Source of the DNA: Arenicola marina
Taxonomy: Eukaryota > Annelida > Polychaeta > Arenicolidae
Reading direction: 5' to 3'
DNA length: 64,000 bases
Assembly (NCBI GenBank): GCA_964019135.1
Contig: OZ025263.1
Span: 31,166,133-31,230,132, forward strand
The notes beneath the pieces are model-generated. The model was not told the origin of the DNA. It ran no database searches and worked only from the letters and a program-made list of their open reading frames with translations. Positions 13,542 to 64,000 of the stretch are shown here, in pieces; the first letter of the stretch is position 1; each line of letters opens with the position of its first letter. Made by a program: the position numbers and the translations under genes.

Positions 13542-15324
13542 TTCCCAACAGAGCTCAAAGACCCTAAAGGTTGCAGGAAATGGACACAATTAGTCAATTG
13601 GAAAGATCCGAAACCAGGAAAAACCAGGATACCACAGCGATACTCAAGGATATGTTCTGTGAAATTTGTAGACAGCGCAAAACCCAAACCACACGTTGCA
13701 TCTTGGCTATGACCTCTTGGTGCCTCCAAGGTCACCCCGTAAGGCACCCGCGCCAAGGACACCCCGTAAGGCACCCGCGCCAAGGACACCCCGTAAGGCA
13801 CCCGCGCCAAGGACACCCCGTAAGGCACCCGCGCCAAGGACACCCCGTAAGGCACCCGCGCCAAGGACACCCCGTAAGGCACCCGCGCCAAGGACACCCC
13901 GTAAGGCACCCGCGCCAAGGACACCCCGTAAGGCACCCGCGCCAAGGACACCCCGTAAGGCACCCGCGCCAAGGACACCCCGTAAGGCACCCGCGCCAAG
14001 GACACCCCGTAAGGCACCCGCGCCAAGGACACCCGCGCCAAGGACACCCGCGCCAAGGACACCCCGTAAGGCACCCGCGCCAAGGACACCCCGTAAGGCA
14101 CCCGCGCCAAGGACACCCCGTAAGGCACCCGCGCCAAGGACACCCCGTAAGGCACCCGCGCCAAGGACACCCCGTAAGGCACCCGCGCCAAGGACACCCG
14201 CGCCAAGGACACCCGCGCCAAGGACACCCCGTAAGGCACCCGCGCCAAGGACACCCCGTAAGGCACCCGCGCCAAGGACACCCCGTAAGGCACCCGCGCC
14301 AAGGACACCCCGTAAGGCACCCGCGCCAAGGACACCCCGTAAGGCACCCGCGCCAAGGACACCCGCGCCAAGGACACCCCGTAAGGCACCCGCGCCAAAG
14401 ACACCCGCGCCAAGGACACCCCGTAAGGCACCCGCGCCAAGGACACCCGCGCCAAGGACACCCGCGCCAAGGACACCCCGTAAGGCACCCGCGCCAAGGA
14501 CACCCGCGCCAAGGACACCCCGTAAGGCACCCGCGCCAAGGACACCCGCGCCAAGGACACCCGCGCCAAGGACACCCCGTAAGGCACCCGCGCCAAGGAC
14601 ACCCGCGCCAAGGACACCCAACCATAGCACACGTACACACACAGCCGAGACATCAGAGTCCCTGGACGAGTCAAACGAGATATTACCTGGACCACATTTA
14701 ACCGACAATCAATATATCACGGATACGCTTTGCCAAATACTCCATGCCAAGACTGCAACCAGAAAGCTAAAGACTTGAAAGCAGCTACAGACGAAATTCA
14801 GCAGCTTAGACAAAACATGGATAAATGCCACATAAGCACCAATGTCAATGGAACTCCACTATATCCACAGGTTTATTGCCAATGACAAAAAGGTGCGCTT
14901 AAACACGGGCCATCCAAATCGTGGAGTGTTTGAGGCACTGTTATTACCATTTGTCGCCGAGGTAAAGCAAATGAAGTACTGGGATGGCAAAGCCCAGGTG
15001 CCTCGTAAATTCAAGGGTAAGGCCAAGAAGTCTGATCCGCCAAGGACACTTTTTGGAAAAGAAGAATTCATCATGGTGCTCATGAAGCTTCGCACAGAGG
15101 TGCGAAATGACTTTCTCTGCGATATATTTCAGATTGCGGAAGGGACATGTTCACAGATAATCACTACGTATCACTGGATACGCTTCTTGGCCAGAGAGAT
15201 AAAACCCCTAGTCTTCTGGCCAGACTATGGTGCCATGCAACAGGATGTGCTCCACTATCAGGGGTTCCGGACAGAGAACACATTCCAGAGGCGGTTCTTC
15301 TTCCAGGCTCGATGTGGCGAGTGA
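13542..15324 (+). pseudogene. THAP + coiled coil + HTH_Tnp_4 transposase (IS4EU/ISL2EU-like), frameshifted
   Basis: Four pieces in order match the usual architecture of this Harbinger-related group. (1) A THAP domain from 13542 in frame 3: FPTELKDPKGCRKWTQL, then RYSRICSVKFVD. (2) A shift to frame 1 at HLGYDLLVPPRSPRK, which leads into a basic Pro-rich linker now expanded as a tandem array (13728-14620). (3) A Cys/coiled-coil segment in frame 3 (CQDCNQKAKDLKAATDEI, near 14745). (4) From about 14860 in frame 1, IHRFIANDKKVRL, GHPNRGVFEALLLPF, then FLCDIFQIAEGTCSQII and EIKPLVFWP, the helix-turn-helix that precedes DDE_Tnp_4. The DDE core is missing or unreadable after 15324. At least two frameshifts make it a pseudogene. 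Confidence 0.65.
13728..14620 (+). repeat. 27/15-bp minisatellite in a transposase linker
   Basis: About 0.9 kb of 27-bp units encoding TPRKAPAPR in frame 1, interspersed with 15-bp units encoding TPAPR (a 12-bp internal deletion). Homogeneity is striking: the only obvious substitution is GCCAAAG for GCCAAGG near 14397. The array ends at TPNHSTRT. Five of six frames are open through it, so the long ORFs here are not independent genes. The first unit is continuous with the THAP-linker sequence PPRSPRKAPAPR, which suggests that the array grew from that codon block. Confidence 0.9.
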
Positions 15325-35162: not shown

Positions 35163-37437
35163 CTCAGGATTCAGGATTCATTTCATTTATTTAACCAATA
35201 CATGACATAGAATATACAGCTAAACGACTGGAGGCTATAATCGTATGGGTTAGGAGATCCAGGCTAAGACCAGAGGTAGCTGTCGCCTGGACCACCTGAG
35301 GGTCAGAAATAAGTATGACGTAATAACAAGAGGCGGAACATACGCTTGGAATAAACGAAATGATATCAGGCTCGAACCAATATAAAGGCTTACAGTTCAC
35401 AATTTAACACAAACTCCCATTCAAAATAAATACACAAAACCAAATAAAAAAAATAAAAAAAATTTCTTTCTTTTTACACCCCCACCCACATTTATATGCT
35501 AAACAAGTGCTATAAGAGGTATGTCAATGTGTTTTTTTATATATTGCTCAGTTAAGACAAGTATAACAATTAACCACGGTACATACATATGTATATGACT
35601 CCAATATCGAAGATTTTATGTAGTTGGAGAAGCCAAGAATACTGTGTGATATAATTTTCTCGATAGTGGTTGAAGGCTCATTATTAATCAAATAAACAAT
35701 ACTGTGGCGGATACATTGAAGCGCAAATGAATGTTGGACTCTGCTAGTAAAGACCTGAAACTTATGACGGGTATTATAATGATGAACATCTCTTCGTTGA
35801 AGAAGCGGTATACTTAGAAAATATTTCGGTAGCGTATCTTTTTTCAGTTTGTAGTAAAATTTTAGTAATTGAATTTTGTGAATGTCAGGGAGTTTAAGGC
35901 ATCTTAATTGCTTAAATAGGGGTTCCGAATGTGCATTGTATTTACTGAATGTAATGACTCTCATTGCCTTTTTCTGAAGTTTAAAGAGGCGGGCATTGTC
36001 ATATCCCCAAACCATGATCCCATATGTGATGTGCGGTAAGATAAGCGTGTTGTACAACGTTAACAGTATATGTTGAGGAAGCGTGTATTTTAACCGGTTT
36101 ATGACCCCAATCGCCCTTGTGACTCGTGTTGCAATTTTCTAAATCTGAGTATGCCACTTCATGTGTTTGTTCAAAGTGATACCCAGTAAGTTAAAATTGT
36201 CTACACATTCTATTTGTTGATTATTAATCTCAAGAATAGGGGGCGTAATTTTTCTTTGAGGAGTGTGAAAGACCATAAATTTTGACTTTTGCACATTAAG
36301 GACAAGTCTGTTGGCGTCTAACCAGTGGCTGATTTTGCGAAGTTCTAAGTTTATATTGGGAGACGACAAACCTGTTGTGAGGGGGCTTATTGAGAAAAAA
36401 AGTGTCGTATCATCAGCATAAATTATATATTCAAAGAATTCACTAGCAGATGGTATGTCGTTGATATAAATGATAAAGAGAAGAGGGCCAAGAATGGACC
36501 CCTGCGGAACCCCAGTGGTTATGTTACAAAGGTTTGAGGCAGTGCCATCGATATCCACATATTGTTTGCGATCCGAAAGATAATTGTTAAACAAGTCTAG
36601 TGCCACCCCTTGTATACCATAGTGATGTAGTTTTTTTGACAATATACCATGATCTATTGTATCGAAGGCCTTGGAAAGATCTAGATAGATGTTAATGGGA
36701 CATTCATTTTTGTCCATCGCCATAAGGGTACGATCCACTATTTCCAAGACAGCCGTATCAGTTGAATGTTTGGGGCGAAACCCATATTGACTATTTACAA
36801 ATAAGTTGTTTTCATAAAAAAATGTATGCATTTGATTTGCCATAATTCTTTCTAGTACCTTTGAGAGAGCAGGTAGAATGGATATAGGACGATAATTATT
36901 GATGTCATCTTTATCTCCTTTTTTAAAGACCGGTACGACCTTCGCTATTTTTAATTTAGTGGGAAATATACCCGTAGTTAGTGTTTGGTTCACTACCAGA
37001 GTGAGAGCCTCCACGATTTCACCCTTAATTGACTGGATAAGCTTCACTGAGAAGGAATCTATACCTTTGCTGTTTTTGGGCTTTAAACTATTAATGGCAT
37101 CCATTACGGTCTCTGAGGTGACGAGATCAAATTTGAATTTAGTGGTCGGTTTAGGCTTTAAATATTCATGGAATTGGTGTGGGGGATTGGAAGAGACCGC
37201 TTTCACAAGGTCCAGCCCAGCCTGCGCGAAGAATTTATTAAACTTGTTGGATATAGTCAAACGGTCAAATATTTCATTGTCACCTATTTTAATATGCGCG
37301 GGGAAGGTCCTTTTATCTTTTGAGAGGTTAAGCACATCTTTCAGGGTACTCCATGTGCGTTTTATGTTATTTTTGCAGCTCATGAATCGATCATGGTAAT
37401 ATTGACGTTTAGTAAGATAAATACTTCGCTTAAGTTA
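35163..37437 (-). mobile_element. non-LTR retrotransposon (CR1/L2/jockey group), 5'-truncated
   Basis: The body contains the RT frame described at 35548-37437. The 3' end reads, on the minus strand, through AATAAATGAAATGAATCC and short tandem TGAATCC units to about 35163, like the simple-repeat tails of CR1/L2-type LINEs. The 5' side ends at about 37437, where RT-linked sequence stops at a TAA. Endonuclease and ORF1 are missing. No target duplication was identified. Confidence 0.75.
35548..37437 (-). pseudogene. LINE reverse transcriptase with one premature stop
   Basis: A single frame covers linker, RT and C-terminal domain. Visible RT blocks are YRPISILPALSKVLERI, GFRPKHSTDTA, NIYLDLSKAFDTIDH (motif A Asp), GVPQGSILGPLLF, IIYADDT (motif C, YADD) and KFMVFHTP. 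The frame is interrupted by one TAG at 36139-36141 and resumes in the same frame through ILPHITYGIMVWG to the stop at 35548. The ATG at 37383 is internal, since related coding sequence (RSIYLTKRQYYHDRF) extends upstream to 37437. The single nonsense change suggests a rather young but dead copy. Confidence 0.85.
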
Positions 37438-39774: not shown

Positions 39775-41085
39775 TCAATCCCTAGGATACATCGATAAAA
39801 CATCCTTTTTTCGCCGTTTTCCAGCTCGACGATCGGATGTGAATGGCTCACGTTGCGCTCGAAGCGGCATGTCAAAGGAAGTCTGTTCGTGAGCACGCCA
39901 CGCTAAAGCTCTCGGTGACATCTCGCGAGAGGTACCCTGGGATCTGTCTGCCGGGGATAACTCGCGTCGCGTGCTGTCAGCTCTGACGTCATCAATGGCC
40001 TCTCTAGTGCGCCAACTATTCATGTACAAGTTATTGATATCCTGAACGTGGTCCAGGGGTCCTGGGGGCATTCCCCTCGGATCCATCGGCGGATTCAACA
40101 CCCTTCTGGCGCCATTGCTACGGACGCCACCGCTACTTCCCTCTCCGGATCTGCTGACGGCTTGGGCTCGGGGTGCATCGATGCTTCTGGGGCGAGCGTT
40201 TCTAGTTTGTCTTACGTCTACGCGTGATTTTTTACTAGACGACGTTCTTGCGTCACGTGGGTCTCGCGCGTCACGTGATCGATCGCGAGAGTACGCGGTA
40301 TTCATGTAGAACTCGCTGGTATTTGGATTACTTTCAAATGCATCGAAATGTTCGGTGTCGTTCTCTGCCGTATGGTGATTGCGATTGTTGGTTTCCGGAT
40401 CAACCGCTGGAGTGAACAAGTCGCTTACGTCGTACGAGTCGATCGTGCCTTGAACGCTCCCATCTGTCGTCAAATAATCGGCGTCCGCGTCCTGTGTGAG
40501 GGGGTGAGGCCTGTTCTTGTACCAGTCCTCCGGGCTGACATCCTGGCCAAGGTGAGACTGCCGCTGACAGTACATCAACCTAGCCCCGTGGGTGGTTGAA
40601 GCTTGAGGCCTAGTCGGTGTGCCCTCCGTGGCACCCGGTTGTCGTTGCCCAGCGGGCCATTGCGCCATCATGTCCTCCTGGTCTGTATAGCGAGGGCTGT
40701 AGCCTGCAGCCTCCCGACCTCCCTGCAGCCCGGGCCCCACGCCCAACCCTCCCCCTTTGGTGACCATCACGCGCCGCAGTTTGTACTGCACGGAATCGCG
40801 CGTGTTGAACCAGCGGCCGTCACCGTGGCTGACTCTCTGCTCCTCGGCGGGCAGGGAGGGCAGAATGATCACCTCTTCGTCGCCCATCTCACCCAGACCC
40901 CGTCTCGTGGGGTCGGTGGCCTTCCGTCGTAACCTCCGTCGTTGCCTGACCACAAACACTGCCGTTACTATGGCAATCGATGCCATGGCAACAGCGCCCA
41001 GTGACGCCCCTACCAGCGGCGGCCAGCTGGGGGGGTACTTGATGAAACCCATCTTTTTCAGCATGACGTTCTTACCAATGAAGAG
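39775..41085 (-). CDS. TIG-domain receptor, last exon: membrane helix and cytoplasmic tail
   Basis: Acceptor TTTCAG precedes CTC at 41085, phase 0, and the exon runs 436 codons to TGA at 39775. It begins LFIGKNVMLKKMGFIKYPP, the membrane-proximal end of a plexin/Met-type TIG domain. A helix follows (PLVGASLGAVAMASIAIVTA plus VFVV), then stop-transfer RQRRRLRRK. The cytoplasmic tail of about 390 residues is rich in Arg, Ser, Asp and Pro and has no kinase, plexin RasGAP or other domain that I recognise. Numbering from MLKKMG, three tyrosines sit in Y-x-N motifs (Y182-KN, Y253-MN, Y347-MN), the Grb2 SH2 consensus. The Arg-rich ends of the tail could also bind membrane or nucleic acid. The gene's N terminus is not in these exons. 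Confidence 0.85.
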   Translation of the reverse strand, partial: LFIGKNVMLKKMGFIKYPPSWPPLVGASLGAVAMASIAIVTAVFVVRQRRRLRRKATDPTRRGLGEMGDEEVIILPSLPAEEQRVSHGDGRWFNTRDSVQYKLRRVMVTKGGGLGVGPGLQGGREAAGYSPRYTDQEDMMAQWPAGQRQPGATEGTPTRPQASTTHGARLMYCQRQSHLGQDVSPEDWYKNRPHPLTQDADADYLTTDGSVQGTIDSYDVSDLFTPAVDPETNNRNHHTAENDTEHFDAFESNPNTSEFYMNTAYSRDRSRDARDPRDARTSSSKKSRVDVRQTRNARPRSIDAPRAQAVSRSGEGSSGGVRSNGARRVLNPPMDPRGMPPGPLDHVQDINNLYMNSWRTREAIDDVRADSTRRELSPADRSQGTSREMSPRALAWRAHEQTSFDMPLRAQREPFTSDRRAGKRRKKDVLSMYPRD

Positions 41086-41344
41086 CTGAAAGTGGAACTA
41101 GCGGATCAGTTATATATATATATATAGACATGTCATTGTCAAGGAGTAATACAGCAATGTGTCATGGAAACTTACTAGAGCTTATATGATTTGGTCTTTG
41201 TGGTGTTAACACTTTAAGGAATGCAAGTGGTACTGATGGGAAATTTTCTAAGAGACGAGTAGCTTCAAACTATCCGAGTTGCATGATTGGCTTAAAGTAG
41301 GGCGCTTTAACCTCTGGATGTATCCAATGCTACCAGGACACGCG

Positions 41345-43008: not shown

Positions 43009-43976
43009 TTTGATTTTTTTTTTGATGGATACAATATTTTATTGATAAATCGTTCAACACTATCGTACAACACACATTCAGTTAATCGTATAACATATCC
43101 TCAACTAACGATATATCTGTTCATAAAAAGAAATGTTCTAATCATCGACAAATGTATCCTGCTATTCAAGAAGACCACAACGTAATCTGGAAAAAGGTCA
43201 AAATTATGTATTACTATGACGGATATGACAGAATAAGAATAAATGCTCATACGTTATATGACGATTTTATTTATTGAACTCATAATTATCTAAGGATTAA
43301 TTTACTAATCAGTTCTTTCAGCAGGCCGTGATTCCACCATTTGTTGTCAGACGAATGGATATTCCACTGGGGGGGGGACAAAGATTCTCTCGAGGCATCC
43401 AATGTTATGAAGTGTCTAACAAGTCTCGTCCACGTGACGCGCGTTCGGCCGACATGCCACGTGACTGCGATGATGAGTGGGGGATGACGTCATACACGCA
43501 TCACGTGGCTCCTTGCCATCCATGACACCGCGAACCAGCCAGCCAGCCAGATTTAGCTACAAACTACACACCACACGCACACACACTCCATGTCGTCGCT
43601 TTGTTCCCCAGAAGTGTTCCTTCGCGGCTACCATACTGTCACGACATTTCTGGCACTTCAACTGGAAAACTTGCCGAGGATGTCTCCATCACGGAACAAG
43701 AAGTAGTCAGTGTCTTCCAGTGCGACTTTGGTGCCTCCAAACTCGGGCAGAAGGACTTTGTCTCCAGCACTCACACTGGGCTGGATCAGATCACCCTTCT
43801 CTGTGCGGCTACCAGGCCCCACAGCCACAACTGTAGCTTCAAGAATTTTGCCCACAGATTTTTCTGGAAGGAGTACTCCTCCCTTTGTCTTTGTCTCTGC
43901 TGCAAAGCGCTGAACCAGCACTCTATCAAACAGGGGAACACATCTCTTCAGAGCTCCAGCCATTTTAACGTGTCTT
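43009..43976 (-). mobile_element. HSPE1: HSPE1 retrocopy (processed mRNA insertion)
   Basis: The insertion has the marks of LINE-mediated retroposition: a 13-bp target duplication (CGTCGAGCATTTT at 42996-43008 and again at 43977-43989), a 13-nt 5' leader, an intronless ORF, a 3' UTR of about 620 nt, AATAAA (minus strand, 43038-43043), and an A-tract at about 43009-43023. It lies in an intron of the TIG receptor gene in the same transcriptional direction. Confidence 0.85.
43658..43963 (-). CDS. HSPE1: 10-kDa chaperonin (HSP10/GroES), intact retrogene ORF
   Basis: The ORF is 101 residues, essentially the full length of animal HSP10, which caps the mitochondrial HSP60 ring. It opens MAGALKRCVPLFDRVLVQRF and keeps the mobile-loop region (AAETKTKGGVLLPEK), ATVVAVGPGS, the GDKVLLPEFGGTKV strand and the YFLFRDGDILGK C terminus. 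There is no frameshift, stop or obvious key-residue loss. Because the copy is processed and flanked by a target duplication, the parental multi-exon gene must lie elsewhere. Expression would depend on the host intron or a captured promoter, which cannot be judged here. Confidence 0.9.
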   Translation of the reverse strand: MAGALKRCVPLFDRVLVQRFAAETKTKGGVLLPEKSVGKILEATVVAVGPGSRTEKGDLIQPSVSAGDKVLLPEFGGTKVALEDTDYFLFRDGDILGKFSS

Positions 43977-43989
43977 CGTCGAGCATTTT
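43977..43989. repeat. target-site duplication, 5' side of HSPE1 retrocopy
   Basis: CGTCGAGCATTTT, the same 13 bp as at 42996-43008. Confidence 0.8.
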
Positions 43990-44512: not shown

Positions 44513-45547
44513 CTGAATAATAGAAACAACACGGTGGAGGTACTACGTAATACTCGAATAAATGGGCTGGGTGGTAACCTGCGGACAACGTGTCATCGCT
44601 TTGTTTGATTGAAAATACTTTAGAAAAGATGAAATATTCTGAAATTTCCCCCACGCTTCCCCAACTATGTACTTCAAACATGACGTCTTTAATTGGTAAC
44701 TATATAGGCATACAGTTAACAGAGGCCGATCTATGAATTTCCTAAGGGGGGTGGGGGTGCTCAATGAAAACTTGCGACCGGGGAGGGGGTGGGGGGTCGG
44801 AGAACCCGACTTTTACCGTGTATGTTCGAGTTCCCAAGATCCGCCCCATGAGTTTAGCATAAAACAACACCACGCGGTTGCATGCTGTGCCTAGTCGGTA
44901 CTTGACCCAGCAAGGACGCTACTCTGAACTTTCTACAGGCTTAAAGTATATGCCATATTACACAAATCCAAAATATATTACACGTATATAGTATCTACAA
45001 ACTGTTACTCTCACTAACCAGAACTAGAATTTTGTGGACGGGGGCTACCCACGCTTTGCGGGTTTCAGCGTTCATATTTGATGCCATGTTCATGTTTGTT
45101 CAAATTTCGTAACTAAAACGTGCCAACCGTATGGTCATTGAGAGCATTTTTGGTTAAAAAATGCATCTCAAACGGACACTGACAGAAATTTGTAGTTAAA
45201 AAAGGCACCCAAAAATGAACACTGACAAATGTGTAGTTAAAAAAGGCACACAAAATAGACACTGACAAAAATGTGTGGTTAAAAAGGCATCAAAAATGTC
45301 AACTGGACTGCATAGTCGAGAACTGCAATTTTGAAGAAAAAAAATCGAGAGAAATTGTAGATTTCTGCTTCGGGGACGGAGAAAAAAAGGGCTATTTGGG
45401 CGGTATATTTGTATATACCTAAATATACGTAGTGCCCCCCCGCTCCCCTCCCCCCCCCCCGGGCTTCACACCTCCCCTCCAAGCCTACCCGAACCCAAAC
45501 CCGCGCCACTGCAAGCAGCTTCCTGGATCTCGCGCAATAAAACTCAC

Positions 45548-46533: not shown

Positions 46534-46659
46534 TTTGTTCGCAATGCTGTCCAGCATAGGTTATGCCTTTCACTTCCACGCAGTTACACTCATAGCTGCC
46601 GAACAGGTTGTCACATCTTCCATTGTTGTGACATCGCGGGGTGAGGCACTCGTCGATAT
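46534..46659 (-). CDS. TIG-domain receptor, exon 3: calcium-binding EGF module
   Basis: A symmetric phase 1-1 exon (acceptor TTGCGAACAG, donor CAAA|GTAAGT) of 126 bp. DIDECLTPRCHNNGRC, then LFGSYECNC and GQHC give the six EGF cysteines, and D-x-D-E-C plus the aromatic GSYEC strand match the Ca-binding EGF consensus. It links the preceding EGF module to the TIG domains. Confidence 0.9.
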
Positions 46660-46724
46660 CTGTTCGCAAATGATAAATGTTCACAAATTGTATTCTGAAA
46701 CACTGTGATGCAACCTGTCGAAGT

Positions 46725-47032
46725 CAGTGGTGGATCCAGGGAAGGGGGGGGGGGGAGGGCACAGGGGGCACTTCCCCACGCCCCCTTTGACTAAAAAATA
46801 GGCGAAAAAAGGCACTTGTCCCCTTCTTTGAAGAAGGGGGCATAGGAGGCACAGTCACTATTCTTTCCTTCAGCCCAGCCTTGGTCGCAAGTTTCACATG
46901 GAATCCCCGCCTGGTTATTCATTACTACCTCACTCGCACCCCCCCCCCCCCCACCTCACCCCAGTCGCAATGTTCTCATTGCATAGGAATAGTGTCCTCT
47001 CCCCTTTCGTAAATTCCTAGAATTCGCCACTG
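46725..47032. mobile_element. MITE-like G/C-run element with CAGTGG ends
   Basis: The left end CAGTGGTGGATCCAGG and the reverse complement of the right end, CAGTGGCGAATTCTAGG, are similar. The interior carries a 12-13 G run, a C run, and phrases shared with other G-rich repeats in this window (GGTCGCAAGTTT, GGCACTTGTCCCC). No clean target duplication was read. Confidence 0.6.
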
Positions 47033-47379
47033 AAAGTGGGAAGTTAATTTTGCCGAGGCAATTTGCTAAATCGAATGAGACATTGTTTTTTTGGACAACA
47101 TACACACAGACATCATACGTTATCAATTAACTAAAATATTGAATTTGCGTTAGAGCTTCATTGATTAAATCAAAAGTTCAAGCTTGTTTGCTTAAGATAT
47201 AGGTCTTATTTTCCAGCTCAAATGCACAAAAAACGAACAGTGCTGCCAAGTTATTGTTCACAACATCAACACCAAATACGCGCATTTTATACGCTTTGAC
47301 ATTGATGACCTCTCAGTAATAATATATGATCTGCTCATACCCCTAACATGTCAAGAATAGTATATATCATATTCATGCC

Positions 47380-48735
47380 TCTATCCTATTCACGCCACTA
47401 CTCTGTCAATGTTATCTCCATGTATTCATATCACAAGCCAGTCACTGTCAATGTCTACCCTATTCACACCTCTGCTCTGTCAGTATTAATGTACACCTAT
47501 TCATTTCACTGCCCTGTGAATATTAATGTTATCCTATTCACATCACTGGCCTGTCAATATTCTTATCTCATCAGGTCACATTACTGGTTCATTGAAATTA
47601 ATGTCTGCTCTATTCACATCACTGGCCTGTCAACATTAATTCCCACAGATGCACATCACTGGCTTATTTTTATTAATAAATATCACACTTCTGAACTTTC
47701 AGGATTAATGTCTTACCAGTTCATATCGTTAGCCTGTCAGTGTTAACGGCCACCTTCTTCACATGGTTGGCCCGTCATTGTTAACGCCCACCTTCTTCAC
47801 ATCGTTAGCCTGTCACTGTTAACGCCCGACTTTTTCACATGGTTAGCTTGTTAGTGTTTACGCCCACCTTATTCACTTGGTTTCCCTGACAGGGTTAACG
47901 CCCACCTTCTTCGCATGGTTAGCCTGTCAGTGTTAACGCCCACCTTCTTCACATGGTTAGCATGATAGGGTTAACGCCCACCTTCTTCACGTGGTTAGCC
48001 TGTCAGTGTTAAAGCCCACTTTCTTCACATGGTTAGTCAGTCAGTGTTAACGCCCACCTTCATGGCTGGCCTGTCAGTGTTAACGCCCACCTTCTTCACA
48101 TGGTTAGTCTGTCAATGTCAGCGCCTACATTGTTTACATCGTTAGCCTGTCAGTGTTTACTACCCACCTTCTTCACATCGTTAGCCTGTCAGTGTTAACG
48201 CCCTCTTTTTTCAAATGGTTAGCCTGTCAGTGTTAACGCCCACCTTCTTCACACGGCTTCACATGCCTAGCCTGACAGGGTTAACACCCACCTTCTTTAC
48301 ATGGTTAGCCTCTCAGTGTCAACGCCGAACTTGTTCACTTGCTGAGCCTGACAGGGTTAACGCTGGCCTTCTTCACATAGTTAACCTGTCAGTGTTAAAC
48401 GCCCACCTTCTTCACATGGTTAGCCTGTCAGTGTTAAAGCCCACTTTCTTCACATGGTTAGTCAGTCAGTGTTAACACCCGCCTTCTTTACATGGTTAGC
48501 CTGTCAGTGTTAACGCCCACCTTCACATCGTTAGCCTGTCAGTGTTAACGCCCGCTCTTTTCACATGGTTAGCCTGTCAGTGTTAACGCCCGCATTCTTC
48601 ACCTCGTTAGCCTGTAAGTTTTAACGCCCACCTTCATGGTTAGCCCGTCAGTTTTAACGACCGCTTTCTTCACATGGTTAGCCTGTCTATATTAATTGAC
48701 GCATACCTTCTTCACATCGTTGGCCTGTCAGTCCC
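47380..48735 (-). repeat. 38-bp minisatellite derived from an exon/splice-donor junction
   Basis: Roughly 30-35 units, well conserved from about 47710 to 48735 and increasingly diverged towards 47380. On the minus strand the unit begins ACTGACAGGCTAACCATGTG and continues AAGAAGGTGGGCGTTAAC. The last 26 bases of the EGF exon at 48707-48829 plus the first dozen bases of its intron (AAGAAG|GTATGCGTCAAT) are the first member of the array. A C-to-T change in most units turns the exon's CAA codon into TAA. Confidence 0.88.
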
Positions 48736-48829
48736 GATGGGCACTGGCATTCAGGCCCCATCGATGTATTGTACGGTCCAGTACATTTGCCGCCATTCAA
48801 GCATGTGCCGAACGATATATCACATGGAG
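48707..48829 (-). CDS. TIG-domain receptor, exon 2: EGF module
   Basis: A symmetric phase 1-1 exon (acceptor TATCTTCAG, donor GAAG|GTATGC). It encodes CDISFGTCLNGGKC, then GPECQCPSGLTGQRCEE: a six-Cys EGF module with the C-x-C-P-x-G-x-x-G-x-x-C ending. Its 3' end and donor are the seed of the minisatellite that fills the following intron. Confidence 0.9.
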
Positions 48830-49025: not shown

Positions 49026-49717
49026 AGAGTCGACGGTATAACGGATCGCTGTAAATAGGGAAAGAGTCTTCGCGTTAAACCAGAAAATTTACGGATAGCG
49101 ATCACCAAACTTTGCCAACAGCTAATCGCGAATCTTCAAAAGTTCCTGGATGTCAATCGCGGAGATCGGCAAAGGTATTCCCTCCCCTCTATATATTGAG
49201 ACGCAAAATTGACCATCGTGCGTAAGTTCGAAACGGCCGAAGCCGAATATTTCGCCCTCGAACAGGACAAAATAGCATGGAGCTGGGCGACAGATTTTAT
49301 CGCCAGATATATATTCTCATGTTGTACTGATGAGGATGTTGCATAACAAACCACACAATATAATGACACTAACCGATCATCAGTATTGGACTCTTTGATA
49401 TTATTATTATATAAATATATATGGGTGGCTCTAGTGTCACCGACCATCAGGTTTAACTAGAATCTCCCAACCCTATGAATGAATCAGTTGTTCCTTGTTT
49501 TATTTATGCCACTTGTTGGTTCTTATGTATTAACTTGGTTAAATAAACGATTATTGACTGGAATTTACTTGACTGTATTGGATTATATACAGCGGTATTT
49601 CCAATCTCGACAACTTGGCAAGGGCCTCCTGCAATTAAACTTCTTTAGTACGGAAACAACTCAATGCAATCACTGTATGAACGCATCGCGTTACCATGGT
49701 AACATGACGGTACTCAC
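49026..49717. other. intron, nothing further seen
   Basis: No exon with matching phase-1 splice sites was recognised between the two assigned exons, though a missed EGF exon cannot be excluded. Confidence 0.4.
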
Positions 49718-50593
49718 TTCGGCACTGGGTGACGCTCGTGGAGTTGGTATCCGTCGTGTTGAGTCCTTCTAAACACACATCGCAGTTCGGTTGCCCAGTG
49801 TACTCCTGGTACTGGCCATGGGGACAGGAGTGAAAGGTCAGCGCGCCGGGGTCGGGCTGATAGAAACCAGCAGAGGCTAACAGGCAATCGGCCATGCCCT
49901 CCTCCGGTTGATACTCTCCAGAAGGACACACTGTGCAATTGGGGCTTCCATTCGCCGGTTGGAAGTGACCTGGGAGGCACAGCGAGCAGCTTACCCGTCC
50001 CGTGAAGCCCTGAAACTCTCCCGGTGCGCAGAGAGAGCACTCGCTCTGTCCAGTGTCGTTCTGGAAACTGCCTGCCGGACAATCCTGGCAGGCGCTTCGA
50101 CCTTTATACGGCTGGAAGGTGCCGGACTCGCACGGGAAGCAACTCGTGCGTCCCGACAGCGGCTGGTACATGCCAGCAACGCACGGGTTGCATGACGCCA
50201 TACCTTCGGCGGCTTGGTAGGTGCCAGCAGCGCACCGGTCACATGACGTCATACCTTCGGCGACTTGGGACGTGCCAGCAGCGCACCGGTCACATGACCT
50301 CATACCTTCGGCGGCTTGATAGGTGCCAGCAGCGCACTGGTCACATGACGTCATACCTTCAGCAGCTTGGTACGTGCCAGCAGCGCACCGGTCACATGAC
50401 GTCATACCTTCTGCGGATTGGTAGGTGCCAGCAGCGCACTGGTCACATGACGTCTGGTTGGGCTGGGACTGGTAATGACCGGGTGGACATTTCAGACACT
50501 CCATCTGTCCTGATCTGTTTTGGTATTGGCCTCGCGGACACGGCTGGCATGTGCCTCCCAGGAGGTAACTACCCGGCAAACAGACCCCAGGAG
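49718..50593 (-). CDS. TIG-domain receptor, exon 1 of those seen: Eph/GCC2-GCC3-like Cys-rich repeats
   Basis: A single 876-bp exon, phase 1-1 (acceptor TGTGAAG at 50594, donor CCGAA|GTGAGT at 49717). It encodes about 14 repeats of the form C-x-x-C-x-x-G-x-(Y/F)-Q-x-x-x-G-x-x-x-C, for example CPPGHYQSQPNQTSC and CAPGEFQGFTGRVSC. This matches the Eph-receptor-like/GCC2-GCC3 domain found in SCUBE-type extracellular proteins. Six adjacent repeats with the core CAAGTYQAAEGMTSC are nearly identical at DNA level. The ATG at 50612 is upstream of the acceptor and is not taken as the start, since the frame probably continues from an earlier exon not found here. No signal peptide is present in the window. 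Confidence 0.85.
50186..50450 (-). repeat. 51-bp tandem repeats inside the Cys-rich exon
   Basis: Five to six 17-codon units coding CD(R/Q)CAAGTYQAAEGMTS, differing by a few bases. In frame and coding. Confidence 0.9.
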
Positions 50594-51235
50594 CTTCACA
50601 CCGCACCGGCAAAGATATACAACATTATACAAAATGCGAACCGTAGGTCGTGAACCTTTTCATCTCAAACAAATAGCATCTTGGTGTGCATTGTGATAAC
50701 AATATATGAAAAAGAAGGTCAGTACCAAAGTTCAATAATTCTTGCGATTTTAGACGAGGAAGACATGTTTGAGAATACCTCTTCTCTGCGTTAGCATGGG
50801 GGCCCGGGGAGTGGAGGGGGATGGGGGTGCATTATGCCCGGACCACACGATGCAGAGCTCATTGCAACAAACTTCTCGAACAAGAGTGCAATAGACTGAT
50901 CCAGGCTCCGACACTAAGCCCCACCCACGCTTGAGTTCTCTTTCCTTACTCGTGGGTATGAAATTGACAATCACAGCTGATGGTAGGTACAAGTGAGACG
51001 TACTCATCTCTGAAACTGACAAGAACACGCTGCTTCGTTTGTCCGACTTGTTTGTCCGATATAACGCACATGGAAGACCTCTTTTCGTCACATGATTGGA
51101 TAAAAGCAACAGTGACGTCAGGGAATGATCGACAGCCTGGATCGGTCTATTGGATGGCCGGTTTTCCACGCATTGTAAGAGCGCGATCGATTCGCCTCTT
51201 CCAAACTCAATCTCTTCTGGAAGAGCACAACGACG
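50594..51235. other. no gene seen
   Basis: Probably intron of the receptor gene. A 19-bp sequence, CAATAGACTGATCCAGGCT near 50891, recurs inverted with one change near 51136-51154. Otherwise unremarkable. Confidence 0.4.
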
Positions 51236-54200
51236 ACAGATATGACAACAACGACAGATACGACAACAACGACATATACGACAACAACGACAGATACGAC
51301 AACAACGACAGATACGACAACAACGACAGATACGACAACAACGACAGATACGACGACAACGGCAGATATGACAACAACGACAGATAAGACAACAACGACA
51401 GATATGACAACAACGACAGATACGACAGATACAACAACAACGACAGATACAACAAAAACGACAATTACGAAGACAACGACAGATATGACAACAACGACAT
51501 AAATGACAATAACGACAGATACGACAACAAAGACAGATAAGACGCCAACGACAGATACGACAACAACGACAGATACGACAACAACGACAGAAACAACGCC
51601 AACGACAGATACGACAACAACGACAGATACGACGACAACCACAGATATGACAACAACAACAGATACGACAACAACGACAAATACGACGACAACGACAGAT
51701 ACGACAACAACGACAGATACGACAACAACGACAGAGACGACAACAACGACAGATACGACAACAACGACAGATACGACGACGACAGATGCGACAACAACGA
51801 CAGATACAACGAGAACGACAGACAAGATAACAACGACAGATACGACAACAACGATAGATAACGACAGATACGACAATGACGACATATACGACGACAACGA
51901 CAGATATGACAAGAACGACAGATACGCCAACAACGGCAGATGTGACAACAACGACAGATAACGACAGATACGACAACAACGACAGATACGACAACAACGA
52001 CAGATACGACGACAACGGCAGATATGACAACAACGACAGATAAGACAACAACGACAGATATGACAACAACGACAGATACGACAACAACGACAGATACGAC
52101 AACGACAGAAACAACAAAAACGACAGATACAACAACAACGACAGATACGAAGAGAACGACAGATATGACAACAACGACAGATATGACAACAACGACAGAT
52201 ACGACAACGACGACAGATACGACAACAACGACAGACACGACAACAACGACAGATACGACAACAACGACAGATACGACAACAACGACAGATAGGACAACGA
52301 CAGACCTGACAACAACGACAGATACGACGACAACGACAGATATGACAACAACGACAGATACGACGCCAACGACGGATACGACGCCAACGACAGATACGAC
52401 AACAACGACAGATACGACAACAACGACAGATACGACAACAACGACAGATACGACAACAACAACAGATACAACGTCAACTACAGATACGACAACAACGACA
52501 GATACGACGACAACCACAGATATGACAACAACGACAGATACGACAACAACGACAGACACGACAACAACAACAGAGACGACAACAACGACAGATATGACAA
52601 CAACGACAGATACGACAACAACGACAGATACGACAACGACAGACCTGACAACAACGACGGATACGACGACAACGACAGATATGACAACAACGACAGATAC
52701 GACAACTACGACAGACACGACAACAACGACAGATGTGACAACAACGACATGTACGACAGCAACGACAGATACGATAACAACGACAAATACGACAACAACG
52801 ACAGATACGACAACGACAGATACGACAACAACGAGTGATACGACAACAACAATAAATACGACAACAACGACAGATACAACAACGACAGTTACGACAACAA
52901 CGACAGATACAACAGCAAAGACAGATACGACAGATATAACAACAACGACAGATATGACAACAACGACAGATACGACGACAACGGCACATATGACAACAAC
53001 GACATTTATGACAACAACGACAGATACGATAACTACGACAGAGACGACCAAAACGACAGATATGACAACAACGACAGATACAACAACAACGACAGATACG
53101 ACAACAACGACAGATACGACCACAGGGACAGATACGACAACAACGACAGATACGACCGCAACGACAGCTACGACGACAACGACAGATACGACAACAACGC
53201 CAGATACGACAACAAAAACAGATACGACAGATATGACAACAACGACAGATACGACAACAACGACAGATACGACGACAACGACACATATGACAACAACGAC
53301 AGATATGACAACAACAACAGATACGACAACAACGACAGAGACGACAACAACGACAGATATGACAACAACGACAGATACGACAACAACGGCAGATAGGACA
53401 ACAACGACTGATACGACGACAACGCCAGACACGGCAACAGCGACAGATACGACGACAACGACAGATACGACAACACCGAAAGATATGACAACAACGACAG
53501 ATACGACAACAACGACGGATACGATAACAGCGACAGATACGACAACAACCACAGATGTGACATCAACGACATACACGACAACAACGACAGATACGACAAC
53601 AACGACAGATACGACAACAACGACAGATACGACAACAACGACAGATACGACAACAAAGACAGATACGACAGATATGACAACAACGAGAGATACGACAACA
53701 ACGACAGGTTCGACAACAACGACAGATACGACAACAACGACAGATGCGACTACGACAGATACGACGACAACGACAGATACGACAACAACGACAGATGCGA
53801 CAAAAACGACAGCTACGACAACAACGACAGATACGACAACAACGACAGATAACGACAAATACGACAACAACGATAGATACGACAACAACGATAGATACGA
53901 CAACGACGATAGATAACGACAGATACGACAACAACGACAGATACGACGACAACGACAGATATGACAAAAACGACAGATACGTCATCAACGACAGATGTGA
54001 CAACAACGACAGATAACGACAGATACGACAACAACGACAGACACGACAACAACGACAGATACGACGACAACGGCAGATATGACAACAACGACAGATAACG
54101 ACAGATGCGACAACAACGACAACCACGACAACAACGACAGATAACGACAGATACGACAACAACGACAGATACGACAACAACGACAGATACAACGACAACG

Positions 54201-57200
54201 GCAGATACGACAACAACGACAGATACGACGACAACCACAGATATGACAACAACGACAGATACGACAACAACGACAAATACGACGACAACGACAGATACGA
54301 CAACAACGACAGACACGACAACAACGACAGAGACGACAACAAGGACAGATACGACAACAACGACGGATACGACGACGACAGATGCGACAACAACGACAGA
54401 TACAACGAGAACGACAGACAAGATAACAACGACAGATACGACAACAACGATAGATAACGACAGATACGACAATAACGACAGATACGACGACAACGACAAA
54501 TATGACAACAACGACAGATACGCCAACAACGACAGATGTAACAGCAACGACAGATAACGACAGATACGACAACAACGACAGATACGACAACAACGACAGA
54601 TATGACAACAACGACAGATATGACAACAACGACAGATACGACAACAACGAAAGATACGACAACAACGACAGATACGACAACAATGACAGGTACGACAACG
54701 ACAGACCTGACAACAACGACAGATACGACGACAACGACAGATATGACAACAACGACAGATACGACGCCAACGACGGATACGACGCCAACGACAGATACGA
54801 CAACAACGACAGATACGACAACAACGACAGATACGACAGTAACGACAGATACAAAGTCAACTACTGATACGACAACAACGACAGATACGACGACAACCAC
54901 AGATATGACAACAACGACAGATACAACAACAACTACAGACACGACAACAACAACAGAGACGGCAACAACGACAGATATGACAGCAACGACAGATACGACA
55001 ACAACGACAGATACGACAACGAAAGACCTGACAACAACGACAGATACGACGACAACGACAGATATGACAACAACGACAGATACGAAAGCAATGAAAGATA
55101 TGACAACAACGACAGATACGACAACAACGACAGATAAGACAACAACGACAGATACGACAACTACGACAGATACGACAACAACGACAGATGTGACAACAAC
55201 GACATGTACGACAGCAACGACAGATACGATAACAACGACAAATACGACGACAACGACAGATACGACAACAACGACAGATACGACAACAACGACAGAAACG
55301 ACAACCACGACAAATACGACAACAACGACAGATACGACAACAACGACAGTTACGACAACAACGACAGATACAACAGTAAAGACAGATACGACAGATATGA
55401 CAACAACAACAGATATGACAACAACGACAGATACGACGACAACGACAGATATGACAACAACGACAGATATGACAACAACGACAGATACCACAACGACAGA
55501 TATGGCAACAACGACAGATACGACCACAACGACAGATACGACAACAACGACAGATACGACCGCAGGGACAGATACGACAACAACGACAGATACGACAGCA
55601 ACGACAGATACGACGACAACGACAGATACGACAACAACGCCAGATACGACAACAAAAACAGATACGACAGATATGACAACAACGACAGATACGACAACAA
55701 CGACAGATACGACGACAACGACACATATGACAACAACGACAGATATGACAACAACAACAGATACGCCAACAACGACAGAGACGACAACAACGACAGATAT
55801 GACAACAACGACAGATACGACAACAACGACAGATAGGACAACAACGACAGATATGACAAAAACTACAGATACCACAACAACAATGGATACGATAACAACG
55901 ACAGATACGACAACAACGACAGATGTGACAACAACGACATATACGACAACAACGACAGATACGACAACAACGACTGATACGACAACAACGACAGATACGA
56001 CAACAACGACAGATACCGCAACAACGACAGATACGACAACAACAACGGATACGATAACAACGACAGATACGACAACAACGACAGATGTGACAACAACGAC
56101 ATATACGACAACAACGACAGATATGAAAACAACAACAGATACGACAACAACGACAGAGACGACAACAACGACAGATATGACAACAACGACAGATACGACA
56201 ACAACGACAGATACGACCACAGGGACAGATATGACAACAACAACAACAGATACGACAGCAACGCCAGATACGACAACAAAAACAGATACGACAGATATGA
56301 CAACAACGACAGATACGACAACAACGACAGATACGACGACAACGACACATATGACAACAACGACAGATATGACAACAACAACAACAGATACGACAACAAC
56401 GACAGAAACGACAACAACGACAGATATGACAACAACGACAGATACGACAACAACGACAGATAGGATAACAACGACAGATATGACAACAACTACAGATACG
56501 ACAACAACAACGGATACGGTAACAACGACAGATACGACAACAATGACAGATGTGACAACAACGACATATACGACAACAACGACAGATACGACAACAACGA
56601 CAGATACGACAACAACGACAGATACGACAACAACAACGGATACGATAACAACGACAGATACGACAACAACGACAGATGTGACAACAACGGCATATACGAC
56701 AACAACGACAGATTAGACCATAGGGACAGATACGACCACAGGGACAGATACGACAGCAACGACAGATACGACAGCAACGACAGATACGACGACAACGACA
56801 GATACGACAACAACGACAGATACGACAACAACGACCGATACGACAGTAACGACAGATACAACGTCAACTACTGATACGACAACAACGACAGATACGACGA
56901 CAACCACAGATATGACAACAACGACAGATACAACAACAACTACAGACATGACAACAACAACAGAGACGACAACAACGACAGATATGACAGCAACGACAGA
57001 TATGACAACAACGACAGATACGACAAGGACAGACCTGACAACAACGACAGATACGACGACAACGACAGATATGACAACAACGACAGATACGAAAGCAATG
57101 AAAGATATGACAACAACGACAGATACGACAACAACGACAGATATGACAACAACGACAGATACTTCAACTACGACAGATACGACAACAACGACAGATGTGA

Positions 57201-60200
57201 CAACAACGACATGTACGACAGCAACGACAGATACGATAACAACGACAAATACGACAACAACGACAGATACGACAACAACGACAGATACGACAACAACGAC
57301 AGAAACGACAACCACGACAAATATGACAACAACGACAGATACGACAACAACGATAGTTACGACAACAAGGACAGATACAACAGCAAAGACAGATACGACA
57401 GATATGACAACAACAACAGATATGACAACAACGACAGATACGACGACAACGACAGATATGACAACAACGACAGATACGACAACTACGACAGAGACGACAA
57501 CAACGACAGATACGACAACAACGACAGATACGACCGCAGGGACAGATACGGCAACAACGACAGATACGACAGCAACGACAGATACAACGACAACGACAGA
57601 TACGACAACAACGCCAGATACGACAACAAAAACAGATACGACAGATATGACAAAAACGACAGATACGAAAACAACGACAGATACGACGACAACGACACAT
57701 ATGACAACAACGACAGATATGACAACAACAACAGATACGACAACAACGACAGATGTGACAACAACGACATATACGACAACAACGACAGATACGACAACAA
57801 CGACTGATACGACAACAACGATAGATATGACAACAACGACAGATACGACAACAACGACAGATACGACAACAACAACGGATACGATGACAACGACAGACAC
57901 GACAACAACGACAGATGTGACAACAACGACATATACGACAACAACGACAGATATGAAAACAACAACAGATACGACAACAACGCCAGATACGACAACAAAA
58001 ACAGATACGACAGATATGACAACAACGACAGATACGACAACAACGACAGATACGACAACAACGACAGATACGACGACAACGACACATATGACAACAACGA
58101 CAGATATGACAACAACAACAAAAGATACGACAACAACGACAGAAACGACAACAACGACAGATATGACAACAACGACAGATACGACAACAACGACAGATAC
58201 GACAGCAACGACAGATACGACGACAACGACAGATACGACAACAACGACAGATACGACAACAACGACCGATACGACAGTAACGACAGATACAACGTCAACT
58301 ACTCATACGACAACAACGACAGATACGACGACAACCACAGATATGACAACAACGACAGATACAACAACAACTACAGACACGACAACAACAACAGAGACGA
58401 CAACAACGACAGATATGACAGCAACGACAGATATGACAACAACGACAGATACGACAAGGACAGACCTGACAACAACGACAGATACGACGACAACGACAGA
58501 TATGACAACAACGACAGATACGAAAGCAATGAAAGATATGACAACAACGACAGATACGACAACAACGACAGATATGACAACAACGACAGATACTTCAACT
58601 ACGACAGATACGACAACAACGACAGATGTGACAACAACGACATGTACGACAGCAACGACAGATACGATAACAACGACAAATACGACAACAACGACAGATA
58701 CGACAACAACGACAGATACGACAACAATGACAGAAACGACAACCACGACAAATACGACAACAACGACAGATACGACAACAACGATAGTTACGACAACAAG
58801 GACAGATACAACAGCAAAGACAGATACGACAGATATGACAACAACAACAGATATGACAACAACGACAGATACGACGACAACGACAGATATGACAACAACG
58901 ACAGATACGACAACTACGACAGAGACGACCACAACGACAGATATGGCAACAACGACAGATACGACAACAACGACAGATACGACAACAACGACAGATACGA
59001 CCGCAGGGACAGATACGGCAACAACGACAGATACGACAGCAACGACAGATACAACGACAACGACAGATACGACAACAACGCCAGATACGACAACAAAAAC
59101 AGATACGACAGATATGACAACAACGACAGATACGACAACAACGACAGATACGACGACAACGACACATATGACAACAACGACAGATATGACAACAACAACA
59201 GATACGACAACAACGACAGATGTGACAACAACGACATATACGACAACAACGACAGATACGACAACAACGACTGATACGACAACAACGACAGATATGACAA
59301 CAACGACAGATACGACAACAACGACAGATACGACAACAACAACGGATACGATAACAACGACAGATACGACAACAACGACAGATGTGACAACAACGACATA
59401 TACGACAACAACGACAGATATGAAAACAACAACAGATACGACAACAACGACAGAGACGACAACAACGACAGATATGAAAACAACAACAGATACGACAACA
59501 ACGCCAGATACGACAACAAAAACAGATACGACAGATATGACAACAACGACAGATACGACAACAACGACAGATACGACAACAACGACAGATACGACGACAA
59601 CGACACATATGACAACAACGACAGATATGACAACAACAACAAAAGATACGACAACAACGACAGAAACGACAACAACGACAGATATGACAACAACGACAGA
59701 TACGACAACAACGACAGATACGACAGCAACGACAGATACGACGACAACGACAGATACGACAACAACGACAGATACGACAACAACGACCGATACGACAGTA
59801 ACGACAGATACAACGTCAACTACTCATACGACAACAACGACAGATACGACGACAACCACAGATATGACAACAACGACAGATACAACAACAACTACAGACA
59901 CGACAACAACAACAGAGACGACAACAACGACAGATATGACAGCAACGACAGATATGACAACAACGACAGATACGACAAGGACAGACCTGACAACAACGAC
60001 AGATACGACGACAACGACAGATATGACAACAACGACAGATACGAAAGCAATGAAAGATATGACAACAACGACAGATACGACAACAACGACAGATATGACA
60101 ACAACGACAGATACTTCAACTACGACAGATACGACAACAACGACAGATGTGACAACAACGACATGTACGACAGCAACGACAGATACGATAACAACGACAA

Positions 60201-63200
60201 ATACGACAACAACGACAGATACGACAACAACGACAGATACGACAACAATGACAGAAACGACAACCACGACAAATACGACAACAACGACAGATATGACAAC
60301 AACGATAGTTACGACAACAAGGACAGATACAACAGCAAAGACAGATACGACAGATATGACAACAACAACAGATATGACAACAACGACAGATACGACGACA
60401 ACGACAGATATGACAACAACGACAGATACGACAACTACGACAGAGACGACCACAACGACAGATATGGCAACAACGACAGATACGACAACAACGACAGATA
60501 CGACAACAACGACAGATACGACCGCAGGGACAGATACAGCAACAACGACAGATACGACAGCAACGACAGATACAACGACAACGACAGATACGACAACAAC
60601 GCCAGATACGACAACAAAAACAGATACGACAGATATGACAACAACGACAGATACGACAACAACGACAGATACGACGACAACGACACATATGACAACAACG
60701 ACAGATATGACAACAACAACAGATACGACAACAACGACAGATGTGACAACAACGACATATACGACAACAACGACAGATACGACAACAACGACTGATACGA
60801 CAACAACGACAGATATGACAACAACGACAGATACGACAACAACGACAGATACGACAACAACAACGGATACGATAACAACGACAGATACGACAACAACGAC
60901 AGATGTGACAACAACGACATATACGACAACAACGACAGATATGAAAACAACAACAGATACGACAACAACGACAGAGACGACAACAACGACAGATATGACA
61001 ACAACGACAGATACGACAACAACGACAGATACGACCACAGGGACAGATACGACAACAACGACAGATACGACAGCAACGACAGATACGACGACAACGACAG
61101 ATACGACAACAACGCCAGATACGACAACAAAAACAGATACGACAGATATGACAACAACGACAGATACGACAACAACGACAGATGCGACAACAACGACAGA
61201 TACGACGACAACGACACATATGACAACAACGACAGATATGACAACAACAACAAAAGATACGACAACAACGACAGAAACGACAACAACGACAGATATGACA
61301 ACAACGACAGATACGACAACAACGACAGATAGGACAACAACGACAGATATGACAACAACTACAGATACGACAACAACAACGGATACGGTAACAACGACAG
61401 ATACGACAACAACGACAGATGTGACAACAACGACATATACGACAACAACGACAGATACGACAACAACGACAGATACGACAACAACGACAGATACGACAAC
61501 AACAACGGATACGATAACAACGACAGATACGACAACAACGACAGATGTGACAACAACGACATATACGACAACAACGACAGATAGGACCATAGGGACAGAT
61601 ACGACCACAGGGACAGATACGACAACAACGACAGATACGACAGCAACTACAGATACGACGACAACGACAGATACGACAACAACGCCAGATACGACAACAA
61701 AAACAGATACGACAGATATGACAACAACGATAGATACGACAACAACGACAGATACGACAACAACGACGGATACGACCACAGGGACAGATACGACAACAAC
61801 GACAGATACGACAGCAACGACAGATACGACGACAACGACAGATACGACAACAACGCCAGATACGACAACAAAAACAGATACGACAGATATGACAACAACG
61901 ACAGATACGACAACAACGACAGATACGACGACAACGACACATATGACAACAACGACAGATATGACAACAACAACAGATACGACAACAACGACAGAGACGA
62001 CAACAACGACAGATATGACAACAACGACAGATACGACAACAACGACAGATAGGACAACAACGGCAGATATGACAACAACGACAGATACGACAACAACAAC
62101 GGATACGATAACAACGACAGATACGACAACGACGACAGATGTGACAACAACGACATATACGACAACAACGACAGATACGACAACAACGACTGATACGACA
62201 ACAACGACAGATACGACAACAACGACAGATCCGACTACAACGACAGATACGACAACAACAACGGATACGATAACAACGACAGATACGACAACAACGACAG
62301 AGGTGACAACAACGACATATACGACAACAACGACAGATACGACAACAACGACTGATACGACAGATATGACAACAACGACAGATAACGACCGATAAGACAA
62401 CAACGATATCTATGACAACAACGACAGATAAGGACAGACACGACAACAACGACGGATTCGACAACAACGACAGATTCGACAACAACGACAGATACGACAA
62501 CAACGACAGATGCAACTGCGACAGATACGACGACAACGACAGATACGACAACAACGACAGATAACGACAGATACGACAACGACGATAGATAACGACAGAC
62601 ACGACAACAACGACAGATACGACGACAACGACAGATATGACAACAACGACAGATACGTCAACAACGACAGATGTGACAACAACGACAGATAACGACAGAT
62701 ACGACAACAACGACAGATACGACAACAACGACAGATACGACGACAACGGCAGATATGACAACAACGACAGATAACGACAGATACGACAACAACGATATTT
62801 AACGACAGATACGACAACAACGACAGATACGACAACAACGACAGATACGACGACAACGACAGATATGACAACAACGACAGATATGACAACAACTACAGAT
62901 ACGACAACAACTACAGATACGACAATAACGACAGATACGACAACAACGACTGATACGACAACAACGACAGATACGACAACAACGACAGATACGACGACAA
63001 TGACAGATATAACAACGACGACAGATTAAGACAACAACAACAGATACGACGAAAACGCCAGATATAACAACGACGACAGATACGACAACAACGACAGATG
63101 CGACAACAACGACAGATACGACATCAACGGCAGATACGACAACAACGACAGATACGACAACAACGATAGATACGACAACAACGACAGATACGACAACGAC

Positions 63201-64000
63201 GATAGATAACGACAGATACGACAACAACGACAGATACGACGACAACGACAGATATGACAACAACGACAGATACGTCAACAACGACAGATGTGACACCAAC
63301 GACAGATAACGACAGATACGACAACAACGACAGACACGACAACAACGACAGATAACGACAGATACGACAACAACGACAGATACGACAACAACTACAGATG
63401 ATGACAGATACGACAACAACGACAGATATGACAACAACGCCAGATATGACAACAACGACAGATACGACAACAACGACAGATACGTCAACAACGACAGATA
63501 TGACAACAACGACAGATACGACAACAACGACAGATACGACGACAACGACACATATGACAACAACGACAGATATGACAACAACAACAGATACGACAACAAC
63601 GACAGAGACGACAGCAACGACAGATATGACAACAACGACAGATACCACAACAACGACAGATAGGACAACAACGACAGATATGACAGCAACTACAGATACG
63701 ACAACAACAACGAATACGATAACAACGACAGATACGACAACAACGACAGATGTGACAACAAGGACATATACGACAACAACGACAGATACGACAACAACGA
63801 CTGATACGACAACAACGACAGATACGACAACAACGACAGATACGACTACAACGACAGATACGACAACAACAACGGATACGATAACAACGACAGATACGAC
63901 AACAACGACAGATGTGACAACATCGACATATACGAAAACAACGACAGATACGACAACAACGACTGATACGACAACAACGGTAGATACGACAACAACGACA
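51236..64000 (+). repeat. 18-bp satellite array of at least 12.7 kb with higher-order repeats
   Basis: The dominant unit is ACAACAACGACAGATACG, about 700 copies, running off the window end. Read in one plus frame it gives TTTTDT; minus frames give VVVVSV, LSLLSY or RICRCC. Common variants are GATATGAC, GATACAAC, AACAACAACA and GATGTGAC. Occasional 6-9-bp unit changes (such as GATAACGACAGATACGAC) shift the frame. A recognisable block around ACATGTACGACAGCAACG recurs at about 52747, 55202, 57209, 58640 and 60161, showing large duplicated segments. The longest open frame is 1,827 codons (56912-62395). I see no evidence that it is translated. Confidence 0.95.

Follow-up and report, generated by a model that had tools for sequence, protein, structure and literature searches.

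The window, a stretch of 64,000 nucleotides from the genome of Arenicola marina, contains on its minus strand a gene in which a minisatellite lies directly beside an exon coding for an EGF module. An upstream exon of this gene (49718-50593, with its donor GAA|GTGAGT and an approximate start both placed by eye; the bar marks the exon/intron boundary) encodes Ephrin_rec_like/TNFR-like modules, and the corresponding open reading frame (49638-50624) matched Pfam Ephrin_rec_like at 3.6e-53. Downstream lie the EGF exon, EGF1 (48707-48829; Pfam EGF, 4.1e-05), whose splice sites were set by eye and which ends in the phase-1 donor AAG|GTATGC; the host intron of the array (46660-48706, 2047 nt, phase 1); and the next exon, EGF2 (46534-46659), a calcium-binding-EGF-like sequence (DIDEC...) identified by Pfam and by its matches in sister genes. 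EGF2 scored 26.9 bits against Pfam EGF_CA (5.9e-06), slightly below the cut-off of 27, and 24.2 bits against Pfam EGF, above the cut-off of 21.5. When EGF1 is joined to EGF2 the frame stays open through EGF2, and the junction reads ...GLTGQRCEE|DIDEC. The downstream open reading frame 39778-41097 contains a stretch that resembles a membrane span by eye, and no Pfam match was found for it.

A protein search for the host gene returned 30 EGF-rich proteins, whose best identity extended over 10-24% of the query, and no orthologue was found among them; a search with the spliced protein gave no homologue at E 0.001. The motif C.C..G[hydrophobic].G..C occurs 251 times in these proteins and in 30/30 of them, and is continued by CExD[IV][DN][ED]C in 50 of the 251 matches (21/30 proteins); the exact string GLTG..CE occurs once. 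Because both the motif and its continuation are common in EGF-rich proteins, the end of the EGF1 exon is ordinary EGF sequence.

The surroundings of the array are rich in other repeats and open frames. The upstream exon contains a coding, in-frame 51-bp (17-aa) repeat of 5.8 copies (minus strand, 50159-50454); the same repeat has 10.8 and 13.8 copies in L056 and L057, two of the sister genes described below, and none was reported in L054 and L055. Upstream of the host gene, an 18-bp array, ACAACAACGACAGATACG, covers at least 12.7 kb (51227-64000) and runs off the window, and shorter stretches of it, cut by the ends of the loci, lie upstream in L056 and L057. A 41-bp array occupies 45176-45298, with arrays that look alike by eye in L054, L055 and L057. 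An intronless HSPE1-like open reading frame (10-kDa chaperonin; minus strand, 43661-43987), whose best match was 93% to an unnamed protein, apparently lies within an intron of the host gene and may be a retrocopy. The window also carries a reverse-transcriptase open reading frame (minus strand, 36142-37434; Pfam RVT_1, 2.2e-34) and, on the plus strand, an open frame of 368 codons (13672-14775) made up mostly of a 27-bp repeat (TPRKAPAPR) in 32 copies.

Read on the minus strand, the EGF1 junction, ACTGACAGGCCAACGATGTGAAGAAG|GTATGCGTCAAT, lies at 48732-48695, with 48707 as the last exonic base. Minisatellites are built of units of about 10-100 bp, arranged head to tail in tens of copies, and the array that abuts this exon, in which a unit of about 38 bp occurs 35 times within the intron, is of this kind. 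Cyclic alignment was done against the reference ACTGACAGGCTAACCATGTGAAGAAG|GTGGGCGTTAAC, with the exon copy counted as unit 1 (48691-48732; 26 exonic nt plus the start of the intron). The remaining sequence, 48690-47380, was thereby divided into a core of 26 units of about 38 bp (47704-48690) and a diverged tail of nine units that have a period of about 37 and lack GTGGGC (47380-47703; delimited by TRF, cyclic alignment and an nhmmer tail profile). TRF reported a 38-bp unit in 26.6 copies at 47720-48732, and further diverged arrays down to 47380. The unit is made up of the last 26 coding bases of the EGF1 exon (48732-48707, the source of the repeat) and about 12 intron bases, and therefore includes the donor junction of the very exon that the array abuts.

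Comparison of the exon end with the unit consensus revealed 24 identical positions in 26. Elsewhere in the window the best match to the consensus on either strand was 17/26, and none of 100,000 shuffled versions of the exon end exceeded 19/26. Beyond the array, a profile of the core units scored no higher than 4.7 bits. In the window gene, the opening 12 bases of the intron agree with the remainder of the unit at 8/12 positions, which indicates that the unit straddles the junction; the sister-gene intron start that was compared gave 9/12. An earlier note, made by reading the sequence alone, had described 30-35 repeats of 38 bp copied from the exon's own donor junction. Both the count and the similarity, which is far better than that of shuffled sequence, bear this description out; judged by this match, the unit is a derivative of EGF1's own donor junction.

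To find relatives of the array, we searched the window's own genome (867 Mb in 762 contigs), with only the best candidates scored and very common words skipped. Among the 32 matches listed, six were strong and lay on contig C18 in five genes, among them the window gene, with two overlapping matches in one gene; the other 26 were weak and lay on C10 and C13. In all five clustered genes the EGF1 exon is present, the intron after it holds the array, and a second EGF exon follows. Copy number varies among them, with 26 (window), 41, 12, 9 and 10 core units apart from the exon copy, in introns of 2047, 2592, 770, 656 and 694 nt, respectively. A protein search of the genome, in which the best 150 of 791 candidates were scored, gave at least 144 matches, and three further, more distantly related genes of the cluster were found in this way (C18:31340429, 31459519 and 31611598). 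In these sisters EGF1 (45% identity, E 1e-4 to 4e-4) and EGF2 (67-69%) have the same order and phase as in the window gene. No match to the array profile was found in any of the three, and the only tandem repeats reported in their EGF1-EGF2 intron were 2-copy stretches of 13-14 bp in two of them; their own exon-end 26-mers matched their own introns at only 13-14/26. These array-less sisters carry a different, 21-bp array, GGGGAGCACGTCTAACCCTTT, in 46, 26 and 3.7 copies upstream of the match to the Ephrin_rec-like exon (L051, 3434-4406; L052, 4083-4622; L053, 5218-5294; the last two as reverse complement).

Genes with and without the array separate with support 100. Since exon and intron are present in 8/8 sister genes examined and the array in 5/8, exon and intron are older than the array. 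Two clades cannot by themselves separate gain from loss of the array; the core unit, however, is nearer to the exons of the array clade (22-24/26) than to those of the array-less genes (15-17/26), so that the array most probably originated in the lineage of the array clade, after the split.

We then placed the exon among the units. On an IQ-TREE tree of the window units (38 columns), the exon attaches, with a branch length of 2.6e-06, to the node that separates a group of seven tail units from the rest; on a second tree made from the 26 exonic columns only, its branch was 1e-06. Among the rows outside the tail, the exon is the closest to the tail. Tail units 28 and 35 cluster with core units on the window tree, where many supports are low and the units short. 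A FastTree tree of 98 core units, five exons and 25 tail units (five per gene) from the five genes contained a split, with support 0.992, that set 93 of the 98 core units apart from all five exons, all 25 tail units and the five last core units. The exon thus falls between core and most tail units on a near-zero branch, and this position, together with the sister genes, agrees with the earlier claim that the exon is ancestral.

The same note had proposed that the array is freshest near the exon and most diverged far from it, and that it grew from the exon side. Within the core, identity to the consensus was unrelated to distance from the exon (Spearman 0.02, p 0.93, 26 units), and units 2-6 (mean 87.4%) were no fresher than units 7-26 (89.9%; permutation p 0.21); an age gradient inside the core was therefore rejected. 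Identity drops from 88-89% in the core to 58% in the tail, and the correlation over core and tail together (rho -0.56, p 0.0004) is due to this step alone. The diverged far end thus stood and the gradient did not. When the unit series of the five genes were aligned in pairs, by a global method that favours end pairing, the first two and the last two units paired one-to-one and gaps were internal in 10/10 gene pairs, which indicates that the edges are old and that the middle turns over. Copies are therefore gained and lost internally, and the data give no support to growth from the exon side.

Donor potential was scored with a donor-site matrix, by which the native donor scored 8.34. The motif AAG|GTGGG[CT] is present in 13/35 units, all of them in the core and none among the nine tail units, and its 13 sites scored 8.48-9.76, each above the native donor; a further site, CTG|GTAAGA in the last core unit, scored 8.89. 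The expectation that every unit carries a donor therefore failed. The number of core sites that equal or exceed the native donor in score is 14, 6, 4, 2 and 1 in the five genes; in the window, sites no more than 1.5 bits under it occur at 11.3 per kb in the array vs 1.27 per kb in other minus-strand sequence below 51000. The donor of the array-less sisters, TTG|GTGAGT, scored 8.76, slightly above those of the array clade (6.5-8.6). U1 duplex energies (-8.8 to -11.8 kcal/mol for the AAG|GTGGG[CT] sites vs -5.7 kcal/mol for the native donor) allowed shifted registers and were set aside. RNA folding of one 111-nt stretch of about three units gave no signal (z -0.06). An in-frame TAG at nt 18-20 of the intron (48687-48689, minus strand) occupies the same place in 5/5 array genes, and every one of the 27 array donors whose score reaches or exceeds that of the native one runs into it. 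As this TAG lies ahead of all intronic units in 5/5 genes, the stop does not depend on the CAA-to-TAA change within units to which it had been attributed.

Considering these results together, we think it probable that the array is a minisatellite seeded by the exon junction and mostly a bystander. In the ancestor of the five-gene cluster, a single 38-bp segment over the exon|intron junction (26 coding plus 12 intron bases) would have been tandemly duplicated just within the intron and then expanded to a minisatellite. The copy on the exon side was presumably kept frozen because it codes for the end of the EGF module, while drift altered those in the intron. A variant unit, CTAACC...GTGGGCGTTAAC, may have been amplified in the middle of the array to become the present core, with older units remaining at the far end, and copies have since come and gone internally while the edges stayed. 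The native, exon-defined donor would be the one in use and the array would be tolerated, a transcript spliced at an array donor being predicted to bear a premature stop. The origin and history of the array are well supported by the comparisons above, and any function is putative. Against the bystander part of this reading weigh the array donors that equal or surpass the native one in all five genes, the retention of the array in 5/5 genes of its clade, and the effect on transcripts of similar arrays in human IFI6 and ABCA7, discussed below.

Two other origins were weighed. The array could be a dispersed satellite that landed beside the exon, its similarity to the exon being coincidental or due to later conversion. 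Minisatellites do abound here, and a 30-bp array at one locus on C10, with no EGF exon match in 19.8 kb, has a 15-nt word in common with the unit and aligns better than 2000/2000 fully shuffled units. However, once that word is given, 7% of shuffles are as similar over the remainder, and chance alone would produce about 61 words of this kind, so this array was rejected as a relative. Two C13 loci with 40-bp units were rejected by eye, and the core profile matched no C13 locus examined; the 41-bp array of the window was rejected too, with 64/1000 shuffles as good on the plus strand and 621/1000 on the minus strand. Against a dispersed satellite also stand the identity of 24/26 in register with the splice junction and the confinement of the strong genomic matches listed to five genes, and we regard it as extremely improbable. 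The array could instead be what is left of a tandem duplication by which the intron came into being, according to the AGGT duplication model: the unit does contain AAG|GT, and an excerpt describing the model reports a 24-bp AGGT case in fission yeast (PMC4974935). This origin was rejected, and has next to no probability, because the intron is found at the same place and phase in the three sisters where the array is absent.

As for function, array copies might compete with the native donor for U1, so that their use adds a stop and leads to NMD, and array length sets productive output. We consider this rather unlikely. In its favour are the strong core sites of the five genes, all of which reach the intronic stop, and the enrichment of near-native sites as scored with the donor-site matrix; so is the 25-bp donor-containing VNTR of ABCA7, for which an excerpt reports unit retention with a premature stop and a length that tracks exon 19 skipping and lower expression, although the same excerpt states that unit retention does not change with VNTR length (PMC5954066). 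The strong decoys themselves do not seem to have been kept: AAGGTGGG is present in 43/98 core units of the five genes, the unit next to the exon has AAAGC in place of AAGGT in 5/5 genes, and for variability the donor stretch comes 15th of 38 in the window and 8th of 38 among the 98 core units. The sequence thus gives no sign of selection keeping decoys, although, as the units share ancestry, this comparison falls short of a formal selection test. A gene-by-gene dial, in which 9 to 41 core copies would siphon pre-mRNA to stop-containing isoforms and expression differences would evolve by copy number, is distinctly unlikely. GAAGAA is an SR-protein motif, and the units could act as a sink by bringing this exonic enhancer sequence into the intron, where splicing factors bound to them would make the native donor less effective or cause the exon that follows to be skipped more often. 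The motif occurs 14 times in the 1-kb core vs a single time in the 8.4 kb that follow the array on the minus strand (47379-39000). This count is no functional evidence, because GAAGAA is inherited from the exon, and the motif is absent from the tail; we judge such a sink very improbable.

If the array is indeed a junction-seeded minisatellite, its birth has been caught with the coding parent still in place, next to three array-free sisters and in five genes at differing lengths. The cluster would then allow tests of where repeats grow, here internally rather than from the source side, and of how cells tolerate many near-perfect donor copies beside a real donor. Were the dial to hold after all, the expression of sister genes would evolve via the copy number of a repeat that derives from the coding sequence of the genes themselves.

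The IFI6 repeat, which has a 12-nt unit, likewise lies at an exon-intron border. Comparison with known systems was based on excerpts of the cited papers. The minisatellite of IFI6 (6-16, G1P3) gives multiple splice donors (Turri, Cuin and Porter 1995, as cited in PMC4526556), and two downstream repeat units are used as splice donors (PMC4526556). Our array resembles it in being a repeat with donor-bearing downstream units; it differs in that donor use was demonstrated in IFI6 whereas the present array is known from sequence, and in its 38-bp unit, 26 bases of which code for part of an EGF module. In intron 18 of ABCA7, the VNTR flanks the exon and includes the exon 18 donor, retention of a single unit leads to the premature stop, and VNTR length varies among people (PMC5954066). 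Both repeats contain a donor and flank an exon. The first two bases of the ABCA7 VNTR are the donor GT, and exonic bases are not mentioned in that excerpt, whereas the unit described here includes the exon end; its variation, moreover, was observed only between sister genes. As in intron gain by tandem duplication (PMC2891723; PMC4974935, in excerpt), exon sequence with a splice motif was tandemly duplicated, but the intron here predates the array. The coding regions of tandem earthworm metallothionein genes similarly remain close to one another, while their repetitive intron, which carries minisatellites, diverges (PMC12783039), although the portion of that report available does not state an exon-junction origin of the repeat. 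In the literature surveyed, mostly titles and beginnings of abstracts, no exon-junction-derived intronic minisatellite other than those of IFI6 and ABCA7 was found. The array is a further donor-bearing junction minisatellite, distinguished by the coding bases in its unit and by a series of sister genes with and without it.
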